Origin: a virus
Length of the DNA: 64,000 nt
Virus record (IMG/VR): IMGVR_UViG_3300029787_005452
Location: 1-64,000 of that record
Direction: 5' to 3' (one strand)
The notes beneath the pieces were generated by a model that had not been told where the DNA came from, searched no databases, and saw nothing but the letters and a program-made list of their open reading frames with translations. A program made the translations under genes and the position numbers. Each line of letters starts with the position of its first letter. The first letter of the stretch is position 1. This document shows positions 5,096 through 31,678 of this stretch, piece by piece.

Positions 5096-6838
5096 ATGGC
5101 TGACCAACAAAACAGTAAACCATCTGGTTTTTTAAAAAATCTAGTTAATAAACTACCATATCAGTCTGTAGACTTTAATAAAGTTTTAGGAGATTTAAAT
5201 CCTAAGTATAATACTTTTGAAGAAACAGGTATGAGAAGAGTAGAAGCTTTAGCAAAAAATTCTATCTTTTATAATAATGATTTTAATAACAATGGTGCTG
5301 GTCAAATAAGTGTTGATGGTAATTATAGTTCATTAGTATATGCCAATGTAGAAGAAAATAAAGGTGGTCGTATGAGAGACTACCGCATAATGGCTGCCTT
5401 TTCTGAGATTAGCGATGCTTTAGATGAAATATGCGATGAATGTATAAACAAAGATGATAATGGTAATATTGTTAATTTAATCTTTAGAAATACTGATATA
5501 GATGAAGAGAAGCAACAAAATATAAAAGATGAATTTGAAAAATATATTGATTATTTCAACTTTGAAAAGAAAGGGTTTGAATATTTTAGACAATTATTAA
5601 TTGAAGGTGAGCTATATTTTGAGCATATTATTCATCAAGGTTATACAAATGATGGTATTTTAGGTGCAGTTGCTTTACCTACAGATTTAATTGATCCTAT
5701 ATATGATAATATACAAAATATGATCATTAAAGGTTATATTTTACGTAAACCTATATTTGATCCTAATAAACCTGAAAAAATAGAAAAGTTTGATTTTATT
5801 CCAATGGATGATAATCAAGTTTCATATATTAATTCAGGTATATGGAATCAAGATAAGACATTTAGATTACCTTTTATTGAAAATGCTAGAAGAGCATATA
5901 GACAATTATCATTAGTAGAAGATGCTATTGTAATATATAGGTTAGTAAGAGCTCCAGAGCGTTTAGTGTTTAATGTAGATGTAGGTAATATGGCTCCACC
6001 AAAAGCTGAAGCATATCTTAGAAAGCTTATTCAAGAGTATTGGAGTAAAAAGACTTTTGATTCTAATCAGTCTGGTCAAGTTCAAAAATTTAACCCTCAA
6101 TCAATGTTAGATTCATTCTGGTTTGCTAAAAGAGCTGGTTCAGAAGGTACATCAGTTACGCAGTTAGCTGGTGGTGCTAATTTAGGTGAGTTAGCAGACT
6201 TAATATATTTTGTAAATAAACTTTACAAAGCATTAAAAGTACCTCTTAATAGATTAAATCCTGAATCTACATTTGACGATAGTCAAAATATTTTAAGAGA
6301 AGAATTAAAGTTTGCTAAATTTATTATTAGAATGCAACAGCAATTTGCAGGTGGTCTTAAAAATGGATTTATAACTCACCTAAAATTAAAAGGATTCTTT
6401 GATGAATATGATCTTAAAGCTCCTAACATACATTTAGAGTTTAATGTACCAACTAATTTCTATGAATTAAGAGAGAGTCAGAAGTTAGAACTTAAAGCTA
6501 CTAACTTTAATAGCTTAGCTTCTAATGAATTTGTAGCTGCTACATATGCTCAGAAAAGATATCTTGGTTGGAACGATGTTGATATAAAAGCTAATAGAGA
6601 GTTTTTACGTAAGGATGCTGAGTTACAATGGGAATTACAACAAATAGGTTCAGGTGGTCCTAATTGGAGAGATGAAATGCAACCTGCTGGGGGAGAAGAT
6701 GCTGGTGGCGGTTTACCTGATGCTGGTGCTGGTGGTGTTAGCCCTGAAACACCACCTGACTTTGGAGGGGGACCCGCTGATGTAGGGGCTCCTGAACCAG
6801 TTGCAGCTGAAGCTCCAGCTCCAGAGCCTGAAGTTTAA
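5096..6838 (+). CDS. 20: Portal vertex protein gp20
   Basis: A 580-residue protein with the T4-type portal pattern: RMRDYRIMAAFSEISDALDEICDE, GELYFEHIIHQG, a YRLVRAPERLVFNVDVGNM stretch, and PLNRLNPESTFDDS followed by REELKFAKFI. Portal dodecamers form the DNA entry vertex and nucleate head assembly. The last 60 residues are low-complexity (Gly, Ala, Pro, Glu). The ATG follows TTAAATAATAATA with no Shine-Dalgarno site, a late-gene layout. A candidate 3' exon of the minus-strand gene next door ends only 9 nt beyond the portal stop. Confidence 0.95.
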   Translation: MADQQNSKPSGFLKNLVNKLPYQSVDFNKVLGDLNPKYNTFEETGMRRVEALAKNSIFYNNDFNNNGAGQISVDGNYSSLVYANVEENKGGRMRDYRIMAAFSEISDALDEICDECINKDDNGNIVNLIFRNTDIDEEKQQNIKDEFEKYIDYFNFEKKGFEYFRQLLIEGELYFEHIIHQGYTNDGILGAVALPTDLIDPIYDNIQNMIIKGYILRKPIFDPNKPEKIEKFDFIPMDDNQVSYINSGIWNQDKTFRLPFIENARRAYRQLSLVEDAIVIYRLVRAPERLVFNVDVGNMAPPKAEAYLRKLIQEYWSKKTFDSNQSGQVQKFNPQSMLDSFWFAKRAGSEGTSVTQLAGGANLGELADLIYFVNKLYKALKVPLNRLNPESTFDDSQNILREELKFAKFIIRMQQQFAGGLKNGFITHLKLKGFFDEYDLKAPNIHLEFNVPTNFYELRESQKLELKATNFNSLASNEFVAATYAQKRYLGWNDVDIKANREFLRKDAELQWELQQIGSGGPNWRDEMQPAGGEDAGGGLPDAGAGGVSPETPPDFGGGPADVGAPEPVAAEAPAPEPEV

Positions 6839-6846
6839 TTAAACTT

Positions 6847-6895
6847 TTAAGTTGATACCCACGGCCAGAATAGAAGTCCACCAACTTTGTTATCG
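6847..6895 (-). CDS. Candidate 3' exon (C-terminus ending FWPWVST) after a group I intron
   Basis: Downstream of the intron core, the minus strand reads D-N-K-V-G-G-L-L-F-W-P-W-V-S-T followed by TAA, just before the portal gene ends on the other strand. The aromatic, well-formed C-terminus and its position make it a good candidate for the final codons of the split gene at 7124-7828. The frame is closed by a TAA upstream inside the intron. The exact 3' splice site is not fixed; a terminal intron G at 6896 or 6894 would be acceptable. Confidence 0.5.
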
Positions 6896-7123
6896 CATTT
6901 TTTTTAATTAATGCTTCTGTATGTTGCCATACAGTTCAGACTATATCTTCATCCTTTCGGATGCCGGACGCTCTTGGGTAGATTATTGTTGGGACTCACC
7001 ACCTAGTCGTTGCACCTTCCGCAGAACTTAAACCCTCTGCGGCTTGGCTCAGTATTGTCTCATAGAGAGTTCTACTGAATTCATCCAGTACGGGCATTAA
7101 AATTTAAAAGAACAAAAAAATAT
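6896..7123 (-). ncRNA. Group I intron (subgroup IA-like), without endonuclease gene
   Basis: The minus strand carries the conserved group I elements in order: P3/P4 region with GAATTCAG (7075-7082), the Q element ACTGAGCCAAGCC (7041-7053), the R element GGTGCAACGACTAG (7003-7016), a P8 hairpin CATCC-GAAA-GGATG (6951-6964), the S element AAGATATAGTCTGAAC (6934-6949) and a P9 hairpin CTGTATG-GCAA-CATACAG (6917-6934). GACTA of R pairs with TAGTC of S to form P7; TGCC and GGCA can form part of P3. The intron is short and has no homing endonuclease. Both ends are estimates, and P1 with its guide sequence was not found convincingly. Confidence 0.82.
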
Positions 7124-7828
7124 TTAAGCTACTTTAGCAAAAAAGCATTGATATGCAGAATCATCAACAATACCTCCACCACTACCAGTATTACTTCTTA
7201 TATAGCTATAATTAAAAACAAAAACATAGTAACCATCTTCTTTAGGAACAGGGTGGTTATTTTTAAAAACCTCAAATATATTATAATTTAAATCTCCTGG
7301 AGATTGAACTGAGAATATTTTCATCCCTACTCGACTACCTTTGAAAACTTCAAAAATTTGACCATCTTTAATTCGCATAGGTAGGCATCTAAATCTATGA
7401 CCATCTTTTAATTTTTGATTTTCACTTAACGCTCTATTTCGCTTTGCACCGTTAATTTGCGATAGAACATAAAGCTGTATTCTTTTAGTAGAATCATCAG
7501 CAAAGTCACCAAAGTCAGAAGCACTTCTAAAACTCTTAAATCCTATATCAAAAAGAGTAGGTAATATATATGCTTTTTTATGACCATCATTTGTTAAATA
7601 GTGATCAAATTCTACTAAATGACCATCCTTATGCAATGCATATGCTTTACCATCTTCTATACCATCAATAGCTAATTGGGTATCTCCTCTAAAACATGTT
7701 TTACCATTATTAAAATAAATACAATCATCTAAAATCTCTTGCATTGAAAAGACTTTTGAACCCGCCGAATCCTCTGCACCGGGACTTTCAAATGATTGTT
7801 TATTTATATGAGGTATAGAAGGTATCAT
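7124..7828 (-). CDS. Virion-associated protein, 5' exon of an intron-split gene
   Basis: A 234-residue soluble beta-rich protein. It contains spaced repeats of a Gly/Asp turn motif (IDGIEDGKAYAL, HKDGHLVEF, NDGHKKAYIL, KDGHRFRCL, KDGQIFEVF). The ATG overlaps the stop of the upstream gene, so the two are co-transcribed. Its TAA lies at the 5' edge of a group I intron, so after splicing the protein would probably continue for about 15 residues ending FWPWVST instead of stopping at AKVA. The pair sits against the direction of the surrounding head genes. A fibre or decoration role is likely; no family is recognised. Confidence 0.65.
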   Translation of the reverse strand: MIPSIPHINKQSFESPGAEDSAGSKVFSMQEILDDCIYFNNGKTCFRGDTQLAIDGIEDGKAYALHKDGHLVEFDHYLTNDGHKKAYILPTLFDIGFKSFRSASDFGDFADDSTKRIQLYVLSQINGAKRNRALSENQKLKDGHRFRCLPMRIKDGQIFEVFKGSRVGMKIFSVQSPGDLNYNIFEVFKNNHPVPKEDGYYVFVFNYSYIRSNTGSGGGIVDDSAYQCFFAKVA

Positions 7829-8130
7829 CAGAACTGATTTAGATTGCTGAAATAAGCAGATCTAAAGTAAACTGATCCAGAAATATATTGTGAATTAGTC
7901 TTAGCACTTACTTCATTTGTATTAGTAATACCTCTCAAAACCATACTTTCACTGGTTTTAATTAAAAAACGACGATCGTCAGTGGTATAATCATTATCAT
8001 AAATAAATAAATCTTGTCCTGATTTATTTGAAATTAAAACTTCACTAGCTGTAAAACCTGATAATGCAACCAAATTAGTATCAATTAGCATATTAAAAGT
8101 ATACGATTTATTTTTATTAACGAATGGCAT
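7828..8130 (-). CDS. Small beta-rich protein upstream of the split gene
   Basis: A 100-residue protein with alternating hydrophobic strands (SGFTASEVLISNKSGQDLFIYDN; ESMVLRGITN). It shares a divergent promoter region with gp13 and overlaps the start of the next gene by one base (TGATG). It looks like a small virion accessory protein. No family is recognised. Confidence 0.55.
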   Translation of the reverse strand: MPFVNKNKSYTFNMLIDTNLVALSGFTASEVLISNKSGQDLFIYDNDYTTDDRRFLIKTSESMVLRGITNTNEVSAKTNSQYISGSVYFRSAYFSNLNQF

Positions 8131-8170
8131 ATAATTATTTAATATAATTGATAACTAATTAAATAATTAT
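8131..8170. promoter_or_regulatory. Divergent late-type promoter pair
   Basis: Near-mirror TTAAATAATTAT elements lead directly into ATG on both strands (minus start at 8130, plus start at 8171). The minus TTAAATA is at 8136-8142 and the plus one at 8159-8165. There is no room for long leaders or Shine-Dalgarno sites. Confidence 0.55.
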
Positions 8171-9376
8171 ATGTCAAAATGTGAAATATCTCCTATATCC
8201 GGATTCCAAAGTACTAATCTAAATTCAAAAGTAGATAACTTTAATAGACTTAGTGATAGAATATTGAGAACGTTAGGTTATCCTTTTGCTAATGTAGAAA
8301 TACATAGAGATCAATTATTTGAAAATATAAGTATTGCTATAGAATATTTTAGTAAGTTTGCTGGCTACACAAAAGAATACCTTATATTCGATAGTAATTT
8401 ATATACAAAAGATTATGGCATTAAAATAGACGATTTATTTACTTTACAAAATACTGATACATTTAGAGAACAAAAAGATTTAAAAACTCTTAATAAAGAT
8501 TTCAACAAAGATATAGAAAATAATTCTCTTTTTGTATCAACTTCTGCAATACCAGGGTCTTTATTCCTGTCATCTTCAGCATTATCATCTACCTTTTACG
8601 ATAATATAACCGGTAGCTTTACTAGTATATCTGCTAATGATATATTTACAACTGATTTTTATAATGCATTAACCCAATTTTCAGATAATGAAACTCTATC
8701 TGGTATTGGTAGCTTATTTTTAGAAAAGAAACAGCAAGGGTTTACTGTAAAAGGTTCGTTAACATCTGTTGATGGTAATCCTAATACCGATAGTTCATAC
8801 AATAATAGCTTTGATTATGATATAATGGATTATAGAAAAGTAATGGCAGTTACTGATTTTGAAGAAGGTTCAACAACAGGTATCAATACTCTTTTTACTA
8901 TCGAGCAAACATTGGCTCAGCAAACATATTTTAGTTATGCTATGGGTAATTATGGTTTTGATTTAATTAGTTGGTATACTTTAAAGAACTGGTTAGAAAC
9001 TAGAGAAAAAATGTTAGCTACTAAACGTTCATATAGTTTTGATGAAAGAACGCAACTTCTAAGAATGTACCCTCAACCAAATGCAAGTAGTGATGTTAGA
9101 TTTTTTGGTGTAGTATCGTGCTACGTTGAACGACCTATAAGAGATATATTAAAAGAGCTTTGGGTATATCAATATTCATTAGCATTAACTAAAATGGCAG
9201 TTGCAAATATAAGAGGTAAGTATGGTAATGTAACTCTATTTGGAGGAGGTAGTTTAAATTCTTCAGACTTAATGACACAAGGATTAGCAGAGAAAGAAAA
9301 ATTAGAAGAACAGTTAATGACTGGTTCAGCTCCTGGTCAAGGAGATGCAGATCCACCTCTATTCTTTGTTGGTTAA
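8171..9376 (+). CDS. 13: gp13-like neck protein
   Basis: A 401-residue protein. The N-terminus resembles T4-type gp13 (RILRTLGYPFANVEIHRDQLFENISIAIEYF, abridged), and the second half keeps the family order: YFSYAMGNYGFDLISW, a FDERTQLLRMYPQP strand, VVSCYVERPIRD, KMAVANIRGKYGNVTLFGG and a C-terminus LFFVG. gp13 helps complete the head-neck joint. The middle (residues 100-200) is a Ser/Thr-rich insertion. It belongs with gp15, portal and gp4, and starts at a late-type element. Confidence 0.8.
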   Translation: MSKCEISPISGFQSTNLNSKVDNFNRLSDRILRTLGYPFANVEIHRDQLFENISIAIEYFSKFAGYTKEYLIFDSNLYTKDYGIKIDDLFTLQNTDTFREQKDLKTLNKDFNKDIENNSLFVSTSAIPGSLFLSSSALSSTFYDNITGSFTSISANDIFTTDFYNALTQFSDNETLSGIGSLFLEKKQQGFTVKGSLTSVDGNPNTDSSYNNSFDYDIMDYRKVMAVTDFEEGSTTGINTLFTIEQTLAQQTYFSYAMGNYGFDLISWYTLKNWLETREKMLATKRSYSFDERTQLLRMYPQPNASSDVRFFGVVSCYVERPIRDILKELWVYQYSLALTKMAVANIRGKYGNVTLFGGGSLNSSDLMTQGLAEKEKLEEQLMTGSAPGQGDADPPLFFVG

Positions 9377-19698: not shown

Positions 19699-21177
19699 AT
19701 GAATTCAATTAGACCTACACAGGCTTATATTGATGAATCAAGAGCCGCACAACTTATGGAAAAGTGGGCTCCTGTACTTGACTACACTTCAAAGAGCGTT
19801 GCTCCTATTGAAGATAGCCATACTCGTTTAAATACTGCTATGCTTTTGGAAAACCAAGAGTCATGGTGTTTGAATGAAGCAGGTCCTAACTACGCAGGAT
19901 CCAGCAACGTTGCTGGTAATGGTGGTGCACTTGGTGACGCATCCTCGATCGGTGCTGCAACAAATGTAACTGGTACTCCAGGTACAGACAGTTATGCTAC
20001 TAGCGACTTCCGTCTTCCAAAGATCTTGATTCCTATGATTCGTCGTACTTTTCCCGAGTTAATTACAAATGAAATCGTTGGTGTTCAACCAATGGCGGGT
20101 CCTGTTGGACTTGCATTTGCTCTTCGTTACCGTTACTCAGGTGAAACACTTGGTGATGGAATCGATGGCAAGGGTGGTTCAAGCGCAGCAGCTCTAAATC
20201 CAGGCACAGTTAATGATGCTAAGGATAAAGAAGCTGGCTACCAAGAACTAAGAACATCTTACACCGGTACATCTGCAGGTTATCTCTCTGGTAATACAGA
20301 GTTTGGTGCCTATAATGCAGCTGATAATGGTGTTGCTAAGTTACTTCAAAACTTTGAAATAACTGGTAACATTCCTACAATGGAAGTCTCTTTCGAGAAG
20401 ACTGCTGTTGAAGCTGGTACAAGACGCCTTGGTGCACGCTGGTCGGTTGAACTTGAACAAGATCTTAAGAACATGAATGGTATCGATATCGATACTGAAT
20501 TAACAAACGCTATGTCGTATGAAATTCAGGCCGAAATCGACCGTGAAATGCTTATGAGAATGATTCAAGTTGCTCTTAATGCAGGATCCGGAAACGGATT
20601 TTCTGTATGGAGCCCTGCTTCTGCAGACGGCCGCTGGTTAGTAGAACGTAATCGCGACTTCTATCAAAGACTGATCGTTGAAGCAAACAGAATCGCAGTG
20701 AGAAATCGCCGTGGTGCTGCTAACTTCATCGTAGCTACACCTCGTGTATGCGCTATTCTTGAAATGCTCCCTGAATTCCAGTGGGTACCTGTTCAAGGTA
20801 ATGTTAATACACAACCAGTTGGTGTTGCTAAGATTGGTAATCTTGGTGGTCGTTTCAACGTTTACAGAGACACACGTACTGAAGGGCAGACAATGGGTAA
20901 TGACCTTGCAGCTGCTTCTAGCACGTCTGTTGAGTATGCGTTACTTGGTTACAAGGGTCCAGAGTTTTATGACACTGGTATCATCTACTGTCCATACATT
21001 CCAGTCATGGTTCAGAGAACAATTGGTCCTAATGACTTCGCGCCACGTGTTGGCTTGCTAACACGTTATGGTGTCGTAGACAATATCTTCGGAGCAAATC
21101 TCTACTACCACGTTATCATTGTAACAGGACTCGGAGAAGCATTTACACCGGGTACAAATTCGGTATACTTTGCGTAA
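19699..21177 (+). CDS. 23: Major capsid protein gp23
   Basis: A 492-residue T4-type capsid protein: LMEKWAPVLDYTSKSVAPI at the N-terminus, RLPKILIPMIRRTFPELI, IVGVQPMAGPVGLAFALRY, LKNMNGIDIDTELTNAMSYEI (abridged), and YCPYIPVMVQRTIGPNDF followed by PRVGLLTRYG. It forms the hexameric shell after gp21 cleavage. The ATG of MNSIRPTQ is used because a Shine-Dalgarno site precedes it. Codons are noticeably richer in C-ending forms than in neighbouring genes, a usual sign of strong expression. Confidence 0.97.
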   Translation: MNSIRPTQAYIDESRAAQLMEKWAPVLDYTSKSVAPIEDSHTRLNTAMLLENQESWCLNEAGPNYAGSSNVAGNGGALGDASSIGAATNVTGTPGTDSYATSDFRLPKILIPMIRRTFPELITNEIVGVQPMAGPVGLAFALRYRYSGETLGDGIDGKGGSSAAALNPGTVNDAKDKEAGYQELRTSYTGTSAGYLSGNTEFGAYNAADNGVAKLLQNFEITGNIPTMEVSFEKTAVEAGTRRLGARWSVELEQDLKNMNGIDIDTELTNAMSYEIQAEIDREMLMRMIQVALNAGSGNGFSVWSPASADGRWLVERNRDFYQRLIVEANRIAVRNRRGAANFIVATPRVCAILEMLPEFQWVPVQGNVNTQPVGVAKIGNLGGRFNVYRDTRTEGQTMGNDLAAASSTSVEYALLGYKGPEFYDTGIIYCPYIPVMVQRTIGPNDFAPRVGLLTRYGVVDNIFGANLYYHVIIVTGLGEAFTPGTNSVYFA

Positions 21178-21208
21178 CGATTAATCTTGATATAAGATAC
21201 AAAACTTT

Positions 21209-21241
21209 GAGACCTGGTTCTATGAGCCAGGTCTCATTTTA
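21209..21241 (+). terminator. Strong terminator after gp23
   Basis: A 10-bp perfect stem TGAGACCTGG/CCAGGTCTCA with an 8-nt loop, followed by TTTTAT. It closes the head operon. Confidence 0.95.
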
Positions 21242-21242
21242 T

Positions 21243-21314
21243 CTATACCATTGATATATACCATGAATATAATATGATGCATATAATTGCACCCCATATC
21301 ATTATTACTTCCAT
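21243..21314 (-). CDS. Possible 23-residue membrane peptide after queF
   Basis: A tiny frame whose ATG overlaps the queF stop (TAATG) encodes one hydrophobic helix (IMIWGAIICIILYSWYI). Coupling to the preceding stop and the clean hydrophobic segment favour a real membrane peptide, but length alone cannot prove it. Confidence 0.35.
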   Translation of the reverse strand: MEVIMIWGAIICIILYSWYISMV

Positions 21315-22243
21315 TATTGCTTAGAAGTTTTAATATGAACTGCTTCAGGATCAATTAGATTAGCAGCATACTTATCAATAAGGTCTTGACTTGAAGCCCT
21401 TACAGGGTTAATATCAATACCACCTCTACGAGCATATAAACACATTACTAATAGTTCAGAAGGATCGAAAGCATCTTTTAATCTTTTATAGAAACACTCA
21501 CATATTTCTTCATGAAAATGACACTCATCTCTATATGATACTACATAGTTTTTAATACTATGGGCATCAATAGCAGTCTTAGATTTAATATAGATAAATA
21601 CATCCCCCCAATCCGGTTGAGAAGTAACACGGCAATTACTCTTTAATAGACCAGAATAAAATTTCTGTTCTAAATCTCTTTTACGAGTAATACCTTCTAA
21701 TAAGCTAGGATCTTCAGTATATTGTGTATATATAAAATCTTTATGATCATCGAGTAAATCTACATTCAAATAATCATCAATTTCCCACTCCATATTAGGA
21801 CTATCATATTTCTTATTAACTCGATCACCATCTTGAAATTTAACTTGAACGTCTGTCTGTAATAATCTACTTAAGTCTCTACTCGAGGTTTCTTCAAATG
21901 AACGAATAGCTACATCTCTTTTAGCAGCCATTTTAGTCATATTAAAGGAATTAAAGTATAACTTAATACTTTTACTCTCAACAATATACTTACTACTACA
22001 AGAGTATACGCACTTTACAACACCAGTTACCGGGCGACCATTATCTAAAAGGAATGAACATTCATATGCATTCCATGTATCAGAACCTACAAAGGGTAAA
22101 TCATCATCAAATATATTTAAATATACTCGATTATTACTACGAGGTTCTCTTACAAGCAATCCTGAATCATACGTACTCTTATATTGAGACGTTTGACCTA
22201 AATGCTTACTAATTCTACTATTATCTAACTCTTTATTTGCCAT
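21314..22243 (-). CDS. queF: QueF-like NADPH-dependent 7-cyano-7-deazaguanine reductase
   Basis: About 309 residues, the long two-domain QueF form. Recognisable elements are DNGRPVTGVVKC, VESKSIKLYFNSFNMT, then CRVTSQPDWGDV with the thioimide-forming Cys and nearby Asp, then ECHFHEEICECFYKRL and LYARRGGIDINPVRAS. QueF reduces preQ0 to preQ1. In phages it occurs with DpdA-type transglycosylases that place deazaguanines in DNA. The start is the ATG of MANKELD, which overlaps the kinase stop upstream by 11 nt. It is the last main gene of a three-gene operon. Confidence 0.93.
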   Translation of the reverse strand: MANKELDNSRISKHLGQTSQYKSTYDSGLLVREPRSNNRVYLNIFDDDLPFVGSDTWNAYECSFLLDNGRPVTGVVKCVYSCSSKYIVESKSIKLYFNSFNMTKMAAKRDVAIRSFEETSSRDLSRLLQTDVQVKFQDGDRVNKKYDSPNMEWEIDDYLNVDLLDDHKDFIYTQYTEDPSLLEGITRKRDLEQKFYSGLLKSNCRVTSQPDWGDVFIYIKSKTAIDAHSIKNYVVSYRDECHFHEEICECFYKRLKDAFDPSELLVMCLYARRGGIDINPVRASSQDLIDKYAANLIDPEAVHIKTSKQ

Positions 22244-22781
22244 AATTATCAAATGTATTATATATTGTTTCCATACGAGTATCCACATCTCCTTTTAATC
22301 TAACAACATTTATCTTATAATGATCTATTGCTTCTTCAAATAGATCTATCATTTTATTTCTAAATTCCTTATTTGTACTTCTTTCTCCATCTTCTACTAA
22401 CGGTATATCAGGTTCAGTATAAAATATAATATCATACTTCTTAATTAATTTCTCAAATAGATAACTAGCCTGCAATGTAATAGCCTCAGGTATTTTATTT
22501 GTATAGTATTGATAAGTTGAATACATAAACCCATCTAATATACATCTATCTAATATTACATTTTTATCCCTATAAACCAAATAATTATGTAAATGACTAT
22601 TCAATATAGCTAACTGCGTAAATTCATCACCATCTTCATTATGATTTAAATTATACTGCTTCATTAATCGTCTAGTAATTTGCGGAACAAAATCAAACTT
22701 ACGAAATCTATCATCTGTTCTCATTTTATCAAGCAAAGTAGACTTACCTGTACTTTGAGCTCCTGTAAAACTAATAATCAT
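22233..22781 (-). CDS. P-loop nucleotide kinase, NadR/AAA_28-like
   Basis: About 182 residues. Walker A GAQSTGKST near the N-terminus, VILDRCILDGFMYSTYQYY as the Walker B/lid region typical of NadR-like and deoxynucleoside-type kinases, and a basic lid (EDGERSTNKEFRNKM). It lies between the TGT-like and QueF genes, overlapping both, so it may phosphorylate or process an intermediate of the deazaguanine pathway; this is inference. AAGGAG lies 10 nt before this ATG; a TTG two codons earlier is an alternative. The gene at 53553 is a distant paralogue. Confidence 0.75.
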   Translation of the reverse strand: MIISFTGAQSTGKSTLLDKMRTDDRFRKFDFVPQITRRLMKQYNLNHNEDGDEFTQLAILNSHLHNYLVYRDKNVILDRCILDGFMYSTYQYYTNKIPEAITLQASYLFEKLIKKYDIIFYTEPDIPLVEDGERSTNKEFRNKMIDLFEEAIDHYKINVVRLKGDVDTRMETIYNTFDNYGK

Positions 22782-23562
22782 GTCCAATTATCTCCTTAAA
22801 ACTATTAACATTATATTGTATATTTTCCCATTCTGTATCACTAACTTCATGATCAATTAAATCAGCTAACATTATAGAAGGTTTTTCATTTAATCCTAGA
22901 TCACTAGTATATCTGAGTTCCTTAATACCAGCAACAACCGGGTTAGATGTATCAACCGATCTAATTGATCTATCACCTCCATATTCTTTAAATTCTTTAG
23001 CAAGAGAGCATCCAAGTAGATGGTGAGGTTTACTTTTATTCCAAACTCCATCTTGTTTAAGGTCATTTATTAACTTTTGTCTACCAGTACACCATCTTTC
23101 TAATTTAGTTTTACCTCTACCGGTAACTATATAATAACTGAAGTCGAAACTTATTGCAATATAATCAGCATTTTCTGACATATAAGTATAACAATCTACT
23201 ATTTCATCATACGTTTTACCTTGAACAGCCCCAATTTTTAAACCTGGTAAATCAGGATACTTACTAATAAAGTCGTGAAAACTTTTAATAGTAGCGTAAC
23301 CGTCTTCTAATATATCAGGTACAATATAATATGAAGGTTTTAGTTCTTTTGCATATTTAGCAAACTTTTCAGGGTTAAATGATTCCCCGAGTTCAAAAAT
23401 ACTATTATCGAGCAAAACTTCTCTACCCAACTTTACGCTATTTTTAAAAAAATTATAATATTCAGGATGCGTTTCAAATAAATGAACTAATGCATAATCA
23501 TAATTATTATATGTTCGTGATTTATCTAAAATAGATATAGGACTTTCATGAGATACAATCAT
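22771..23562 (-). CDS. TGT/DpdA-like DNA deazaguanine transglycosylase
   Basis: About 263 residues with a TIM-barrel-like motif order: LLDNSIFELGE (cf. the DSGGF motif of tRNA-guanine transglycosylases), SYYIVPDILEDG, LKIGAVQGKT, DYIAISFDFSYY, KPHHLLGCSL and IRSVDTSNPV, where the Asp could be the nucleophile. With QueF in the same operon, the natural reading is a phage DpdA-type enzyme exchanging guanine in DNA for a 7-deazaguanine. The start MIVSHESP is chosen because the sigma70-like -10 element lies 6 nt upstream of it; the longer frame would begin inside the promoter. Confidence 0.78.
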   Translation of the reverse strand: MIVSHESPISILDKSRTYNNYDYALVHLFETHPEYYNFFKNSVKLGREVLLDNSIFELGESFNPEKFAKYAKELKPSYYIVPDILEDGYATIKSFHDFISKYPDLPGLKIGAVQGKTYDEIVDCYTYMSENADYIAISFDFSYYIVTGRGKTKLERWCTGRQKLINDLKQDGVWNKSKPHHLLGCSLAKEFKEYGGDRSIRSVDTSNPVVAGIKELRYTSDLGLNEKPSIMLADLIDHEVSDTEWENIQYNVNSFKEIIGHDY

Positions 23563-31594: not shown

Positions 31595-31678
31595 ATGAGT
31601 CGTTCATCTCTTTTAGAGATCTCTTTAAAGGAGACGGAAGTAAGAGACATAGTGTCCCTGAAGGAACGCGTGAATTAA
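31595..31678 (+). CDS. Possible 27-residue leader peptide
   Basis: A short ATG-started frame (MSRSSLLEISLKETEV, then RDIVSLKERVN) begins right after a TTAAATATAT element, 24 nt upstream of a second small gene. The same stretch can form several small hairpins (GACA/TGTC; CGTG/CACG). It may be a real peptide, a regulatory leader, or merely a structured 5' untranslated region. Confidence 0.3.
   Translation: MSRSSLLEISLKETEVRDIVSLKERVN

Follow-up and report, generated by a model that had tools for sequence, protein, structure and literature searches.

The 64,000-nucleotide stretch of viral DNA analysed here (the window) lies within a 185,197-base virus record in which T4-like head genes are present. 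Behind the stop codon of a 234-codon open reading frame (ORF) on its minus strand stands a real group I catalytic core. We propose, with moderate confidence, that the element is a naturally occurring, circularly permuted group I ribozyme located within the 3′ UTR of a fibre-type gene; its core would make it a group I ribozyme, and its P1 would make it permuted. This proposal is read from the sequence of the core, the order of the pairing segments, the covariation of the permuted P1 and the intactness of the preceding ORF. The features of the region are listed below; a slash marks a splice site here and throughout.

5096–6838, plus strand: convergent portal gene (T4 gp20-like), stop codon 6836–6838
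7828–8130, minus strand: 100-codon gene, upstream partner in the minus-strand pair; homologues recur at the gp20–gp13 site in relatives
7124–7828, minus strand: 234-codon ORF for a probable virion/fibre-type protein, ending in TAA; C-terminus ..YQCFFAKVA-stop judged native
7098–7123, minus strand: A/T-rich spacer from the stop codon to the guide
7090–7097, minus strand: internal guide sequence AUGCCCGU, putative 3′ strand of the permuted P1; G 7095 would pair with the splice-site U
6917–7088, minus strand: group I core (RF00028 and alignment)
7088–7082 with 6970–6964, minus strand: P3
7079–7015, minus strand: P4–P6
7008–7004 with 6943–6939, minus strand: P7
6963–6950, minus strand: P8
6934–6917, minus strand: P9 with a GNRA loop
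6885–6916, minus strand: P9.2-like hairpin with conserved GAUAAC, candidate 3′ splice site, placed by analogy with introns of known exons (psbA, terminase)
6857–6884, minus strand: candidate permuted exon and predicted circle, 28 nt with omega G at 6885, 25 nt with omega G at 6882
6855–6862, minus strand: putative permuted 5′ splice site GUGGGU/AU, GUGGGUAU, canonical for group I and pairing with the guide AUGCCCGU; predicted cleavage between 6857 and 6856

The initial annotation had placed a group I core on the minus strand after the stop of the 234-residue gene, and the covariance-model check with RF00028 bears this out. The model matches positions 7151–6917 over its full length (1–253) with 84.4 bits (gathering threshold 50; E 5e-20 in the 64 kb), the sole group I match in the entire 185,197-base record. 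Helices P3, P4–P6, P7, P8 and P9 are all found; P3, P4–P6, P8 and P9 covary among nine relatives, and the GNRA loops of P9 are kept with paired changes across them, indicating an RNA under selection. The candidate omega G is 6885, with 6882 as an alternative, in a GAUAACA..G context as in introns with known exons. The structured element spans approximately 7123–6855, between two convergent genes and outside the portal gene. No ORF for a transposase, TnpB or homing endonuclease occurs in 7124–6838, which agrees with the reported lack of an endonuclease gene; identification as an IStron or homing intron was rejected for the same reason.

The portal protein corresponds to gp20 (Pfam Portal_T4, E 8e-100) and shares ~30% identity with those of named phages. 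Other T4-like head genes in the window encode a gp13-like head–tail adaptor and a gp15-like tail sheath stabiliser. The 100-codon and 234-codon ORFs lie between the portal and adaptor genes on the opposite strand, at a variable site whose set of minus-strand genes changes from locus to locus (80 loci from an IMG/VR scan with the portal). The second gene of this interval (window 6838–8171, loci L010–L081) often possesses the N-terminal motif M(I/L)P.(I/V)P..N(K/R), followed by very different C-terminal domains. Homologues of the 234-residue protein were not detected in INPHARED (tblastn), PHROGs or Pfam, nor were homologues of its L121 counterpart in GTDB genomes, and a fold search yielded no match at E ≤ 0.001. 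At L054 7151–9168 (also in L052 and L053), the gp13-like adaptor gene carries an insert of ~800 nt without a group I intron and consists of two overlapping ORFs in different frames, pointing to a frameshift or an inserted domain. Elsewhere in the window (31599–31672, plus strand), a glutamine riboswitch aptamer was recognized (RF01739, 48.3 bits).

Nine related elements on marine virus contigs were compared: the window element, L006 introns 1 and 2, L121, L110, L115, L117, L111 and L127. Introns beyond those of the portal scan were gathered using a core-sequence pattern. In eight contigs of one population (L002–L009), a ~56% identical homologue of the 234-residue protein is encoded, and behind its single stop codon stand two group I introns in tandem (L006 7245–6675, minus strand), ~73% alike. 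The second of these and the window intron share 93% identity. Each L006 unit begins at TTAAATATT, and the single unit of the window is joined directly to the stop codon; recombination that removed the first unit could explain the difference, and so could acquisition of a second. L121 encodes another homologue of the 234-residue protein, and L110/L120, L115 and L117 encode proteins distantly related to its C-terminal domain; the core follows the stop codon of the ORF in each of these. No intronless homologue was found: a DNA scan of IMG/VR for DGYYVF(V/I/M)F, made without regard to introns, returned only the L006 group and L121, all intron-bearing. In L111 and L109/L127, a related RNA stands behind other ORFs that appear fibre-like in make-up by sequence reading, and family searches gave no confirmation of their function. 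Plasmids yielded no related element. Five regions of named phages with annotated context represent polymerase, terminase or head genes split by ordinary introns and were discarded as permuted cases; pYD6-A, Vibrio 249E41-1 and a fecal contig are outside the count.

Several other arrangements were seen during this survey. Six group I introns are packed into 2.2 kb of the L105 record (20600–22808). In L121 (4605–4570, minus strand), there are two copies of TTTATGCCAAAGTG around the stop codon, the second of which forms a perfect hairpin before the ribozyme. In a T4-like relative (L177/L178), a glycosyltransferase-like gene is interrupted by an ordinary group I intron whose P1, GGCU, is situated upstream.

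The order of guide, core, 3′ splice site, a spacer of 15–69 nt and 5′ splice site is common to all nine elements. In each of them, a sequence exactly complementary to that element's guide lies 15–69 nt past the candidate omega G, and such a sequence is present within 165 nt upstream in only one; the chance of an exact complement is 0.04–0.31 per flank. The downstream sequence varies with the guide: GGGUA accompanies UGCCC (window, L006 intron 2, L121, L110, L115 and L117), GGGUC accompanies GGCCC (L006 intron 1 and L111) and GGCUC accompanies GGGCC (L127). Among ten standard introns used as a control, an exact complement was present downstream in one. The same type of guide has its complement 8–9 nt upstream in S-CBWM1 psbA intron 1, the terminase gene of Vibrio phage R16F and the glycosyltransferase-like gene of L177.

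In a composite alignment of the nine sequences, the splice-site G-U of the permuted P1 is invariant, and the neighbouring pairs are U-A (six) or G-C (three) and C-G (eight) or G-C (one). Over the whole structure, 19 double-change pairs were counted, versus a mean of 10.0 in shuffled alignments and 0–2 when the alignment was slid. The downstream sites were picked by a complementarity search, so the covariation of the permuted P1 is partly selected rather than blind, and ancestry is shared within the sample (L110, L115 and L117 together; the window and L006 intron 2 together). In a best-score scan, the downstream GGGU helices had individual p values of 0.12–0.44, none significant, and another helix or register scored top for L006 intron 1 and L121. 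DNA identity between the window and L006 stops at GGGTA. A P10 helix joining the guide to the exon start looks weak or absent by eye, with at most two pairs, depending on the choice of omega G.

We infer the reaction itself, the exact omega G, the formation of a circle and the role of the element from this arrangement. The RNA would present, in order, the stop codon, a spacer of ~28 nt, the guide, the P3–P9 core, omega G, 25–28 nt and GGGU/A. A guanosine would first attack GGGU/A, paired with the guide through its U-G, and sever the RNA 3′ of it. The U-OH exposed in this way would then react at the position following omega G, which would close the 25–28 nt between the two sites into a circle, and the fibre mRNA would end in the folded core. 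The role of the element may be to trim or protect this end, or to separate the mRNA from RNA that is downstream or antisense. Cleavage in the window would, in addition, release RNA antisense to gp20; in L121, the ATG of the next gene directly follows the GGGU/A site, so that the cut would fall just before a start codon. The distance from the stop codon to the guide G is 23–28 nt in six of eight elements, 38 nt in L117 and 51 nt in L121, a distance that perhaps suffices to keep the guide clear of a terminating ribosome. Exon folding is strong for the 69 nt of L127 and absent for the 15 nt of L006 intron 1; given this uneven folding and the 15–69 nt range of exon lengths, the circle may be less important than the cut. 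The L006 intron 1 exon may lack the length needed to circularise.

The core could also serve as a 3′-UTR element without ligation, hydrolysing only the 3′ splice site or GGGU/A, or simply protecting the fibre mRNA as a stable fold. Such a function would fit the guide position 23–51 nt past the stop codon in all elements measured, the selection acting on the core and the difficulty of circularising 15 nt in L006 intron 1. However, a passive structure needs no conserved, covarying guide/GGGU pair with an invariant U-G, and we regard this explanation as unlikely.

The initial annotation had instead described a conventional intron near the end of a virion gene, with splicing that replaces an early stop by a tiny last exon ending in FWPWVST. 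On this model, the 5′ splice site would fall within the final codons (e.g., UGCUUU/UUUGCU), and FAKVA-stop would be the ending replaced. In its favour, RF00028 aligns end to end including an upstream P1, the GLLFWPWV frame is common to the window and L006, and L110 and L115 permit GUAUU/ or AUAUU/ with GAUAU as P1. We scanned for U-G-centred helices upstream and scored them against shuffled sequence, a procedure that put the genuine site at the top of its ranking for two terminase introns (L107 and L112). No conventional upstream P1 in the window rose above the shuffles. The P1 of the RF00028 model (7147–7130) stems from a forced global alignment, contains mismatches including one beside the splice site and resembles those of shuffled sequences. 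The possible upstream P1 of L115 and L110 (ATATT with GATAT) had p values of 0.28–0.30, and a single upstream GGGTA in L110 is situated within its coding sequence.

The C-terminus of the protein also argues against this model. The ending ..(F/Y)xAKVx-stop is conserved, with differing codons, in homologues 21–59% identical to the window protein (L117 has NLKID). In an AlphaFold model built from a six-sequence alignment (pLDDT 65.8 overall, pTM 0.70), the last strand, residues 219–232, is confident, with pLDDT 79–92 for the block; the model of the L115 homologue, of low overall confidence, also ends in a strand. Because of this conserved end and confident terminal β-strand, the 234-residue protein looks complete, the supposed early stop is its normal end, and the neighbouring gene, a probable virion gene as had been suggested and here read as fibre-type, is probably not interrupted.

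The ~15-codon frame does exist in the window (..GLLFWPWVST-stop, with its TAA before the portal stop); as a last exon, it is not kept in relatives. In L006 the frame has no nearby stop and runs on antisense to the portal gene, and the downstream peptides of L121, L110, L115 and L117 are unrelated to FWPWVST, their frames and lengths varying; no conserved coding exon was found 3′ of the element in these five or in the window. The three differences between the window and L006 in the GLLFWPWV frame are all synonymous, although three changes prove little. A degenerate DNA scan for relatives with an uninterrupted gene ending in FWPWVST hit nothing beyond the L006 group and five unrelated contigs, the latter judged chance matches from their context. 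The FWPWVST codons overlap GUGGGUAU, a segment more readily accounted for by a 5′ splice site belonging to a permuted ribozyme, and we consider a conventional intron with a tiny last exon quite unlikely. A variant with the 5′ site further upstream, which would place the 234-codon ORF within a large P1 loop, was rejected because the upstream 100-codon gene ends alike in intron-free relatives.

It is very improbable that the downstream GGGUA is leftover common sequence in ordinary introns whose true 5′ exon lies far upstream or in trans: the flank-wise chance of 4–31% and the recent relatedness of several elements would allow it, but the match is found in 9/9 elements versus 1/10 standard introns and shifts with the guide in L111 and L006 intron 1 (GGGUC) and in L127 (GGCUC).

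Returning to the circularly permuted ribozyme, a broader claim can be made from the nine elements, namely that they represent a natural permuted group I lineage among marine phages, located directly behind the stop codons of fibre-type (host-recognition) genes, trimming their mRNA and releasing a small circle, with a tandem pair in L006. We hold this to be about evenly balanced between right and wrong. If true, such a family would show how permutation arises and would be a source of very compact circularising ribozymes; phage use of small circular RNAs or of ribozyme-made mRNA ends would become testable; and the attachment to fibre-type genes, which evolve via 3′-end exchange, would also be new.

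A 2023 list of natural RNA circular permutations comprises hammerhead and twister ribozymes, 5S rRNA and group II introns, and group I introns are absent from it (PMC10085705). Our literature search found no natural circularly permuted group I intron in phages, with incomplete coverage of preprints and subscription sources that leaves priority uncertain. A natural permuted splicing ribozyme of another class shares natural permutation and predicted RNA circles with the window element. Group I back-splicing at coral mitochondrial ND5-717 (PMC6545197) likewise involves a natural group I intron on a permuted precursor; there, the permutation results from the circular mitochondrial genome and the mRNA is restored, whereas in the window it would be local and after a stop codon. 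Phage introns matching RF00028 (S-CBWM1 psbA and Vibrio phage terminase) have in common with our element the P3–P9 core, the guanosine site in P7, the GNRA loop of P9 and a guide G(C/G)CC with a GG(G/C)U site. They differ in having the 5′ splice site upstream and an interrupted gene, in contrast to the putative site downstream of the core and the intact ORF described here. Permuted group I introns are known as a laboratory tool for circular RNA production. Engineered permuted intron–exon (PIE) constructs and the end-to-end circularising ribozyme from Tetrahymena (PMC10415121) have the same order of guide, core, 3′ site, exon and 5′ site, and a circular exon is the expected product; the engineered ribozyme of identical order circularises RNA placed downstream of itself (PMC10415121). 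Compared with PIE, the putative permuted element of the window is natural and viral and would have a very short exon.
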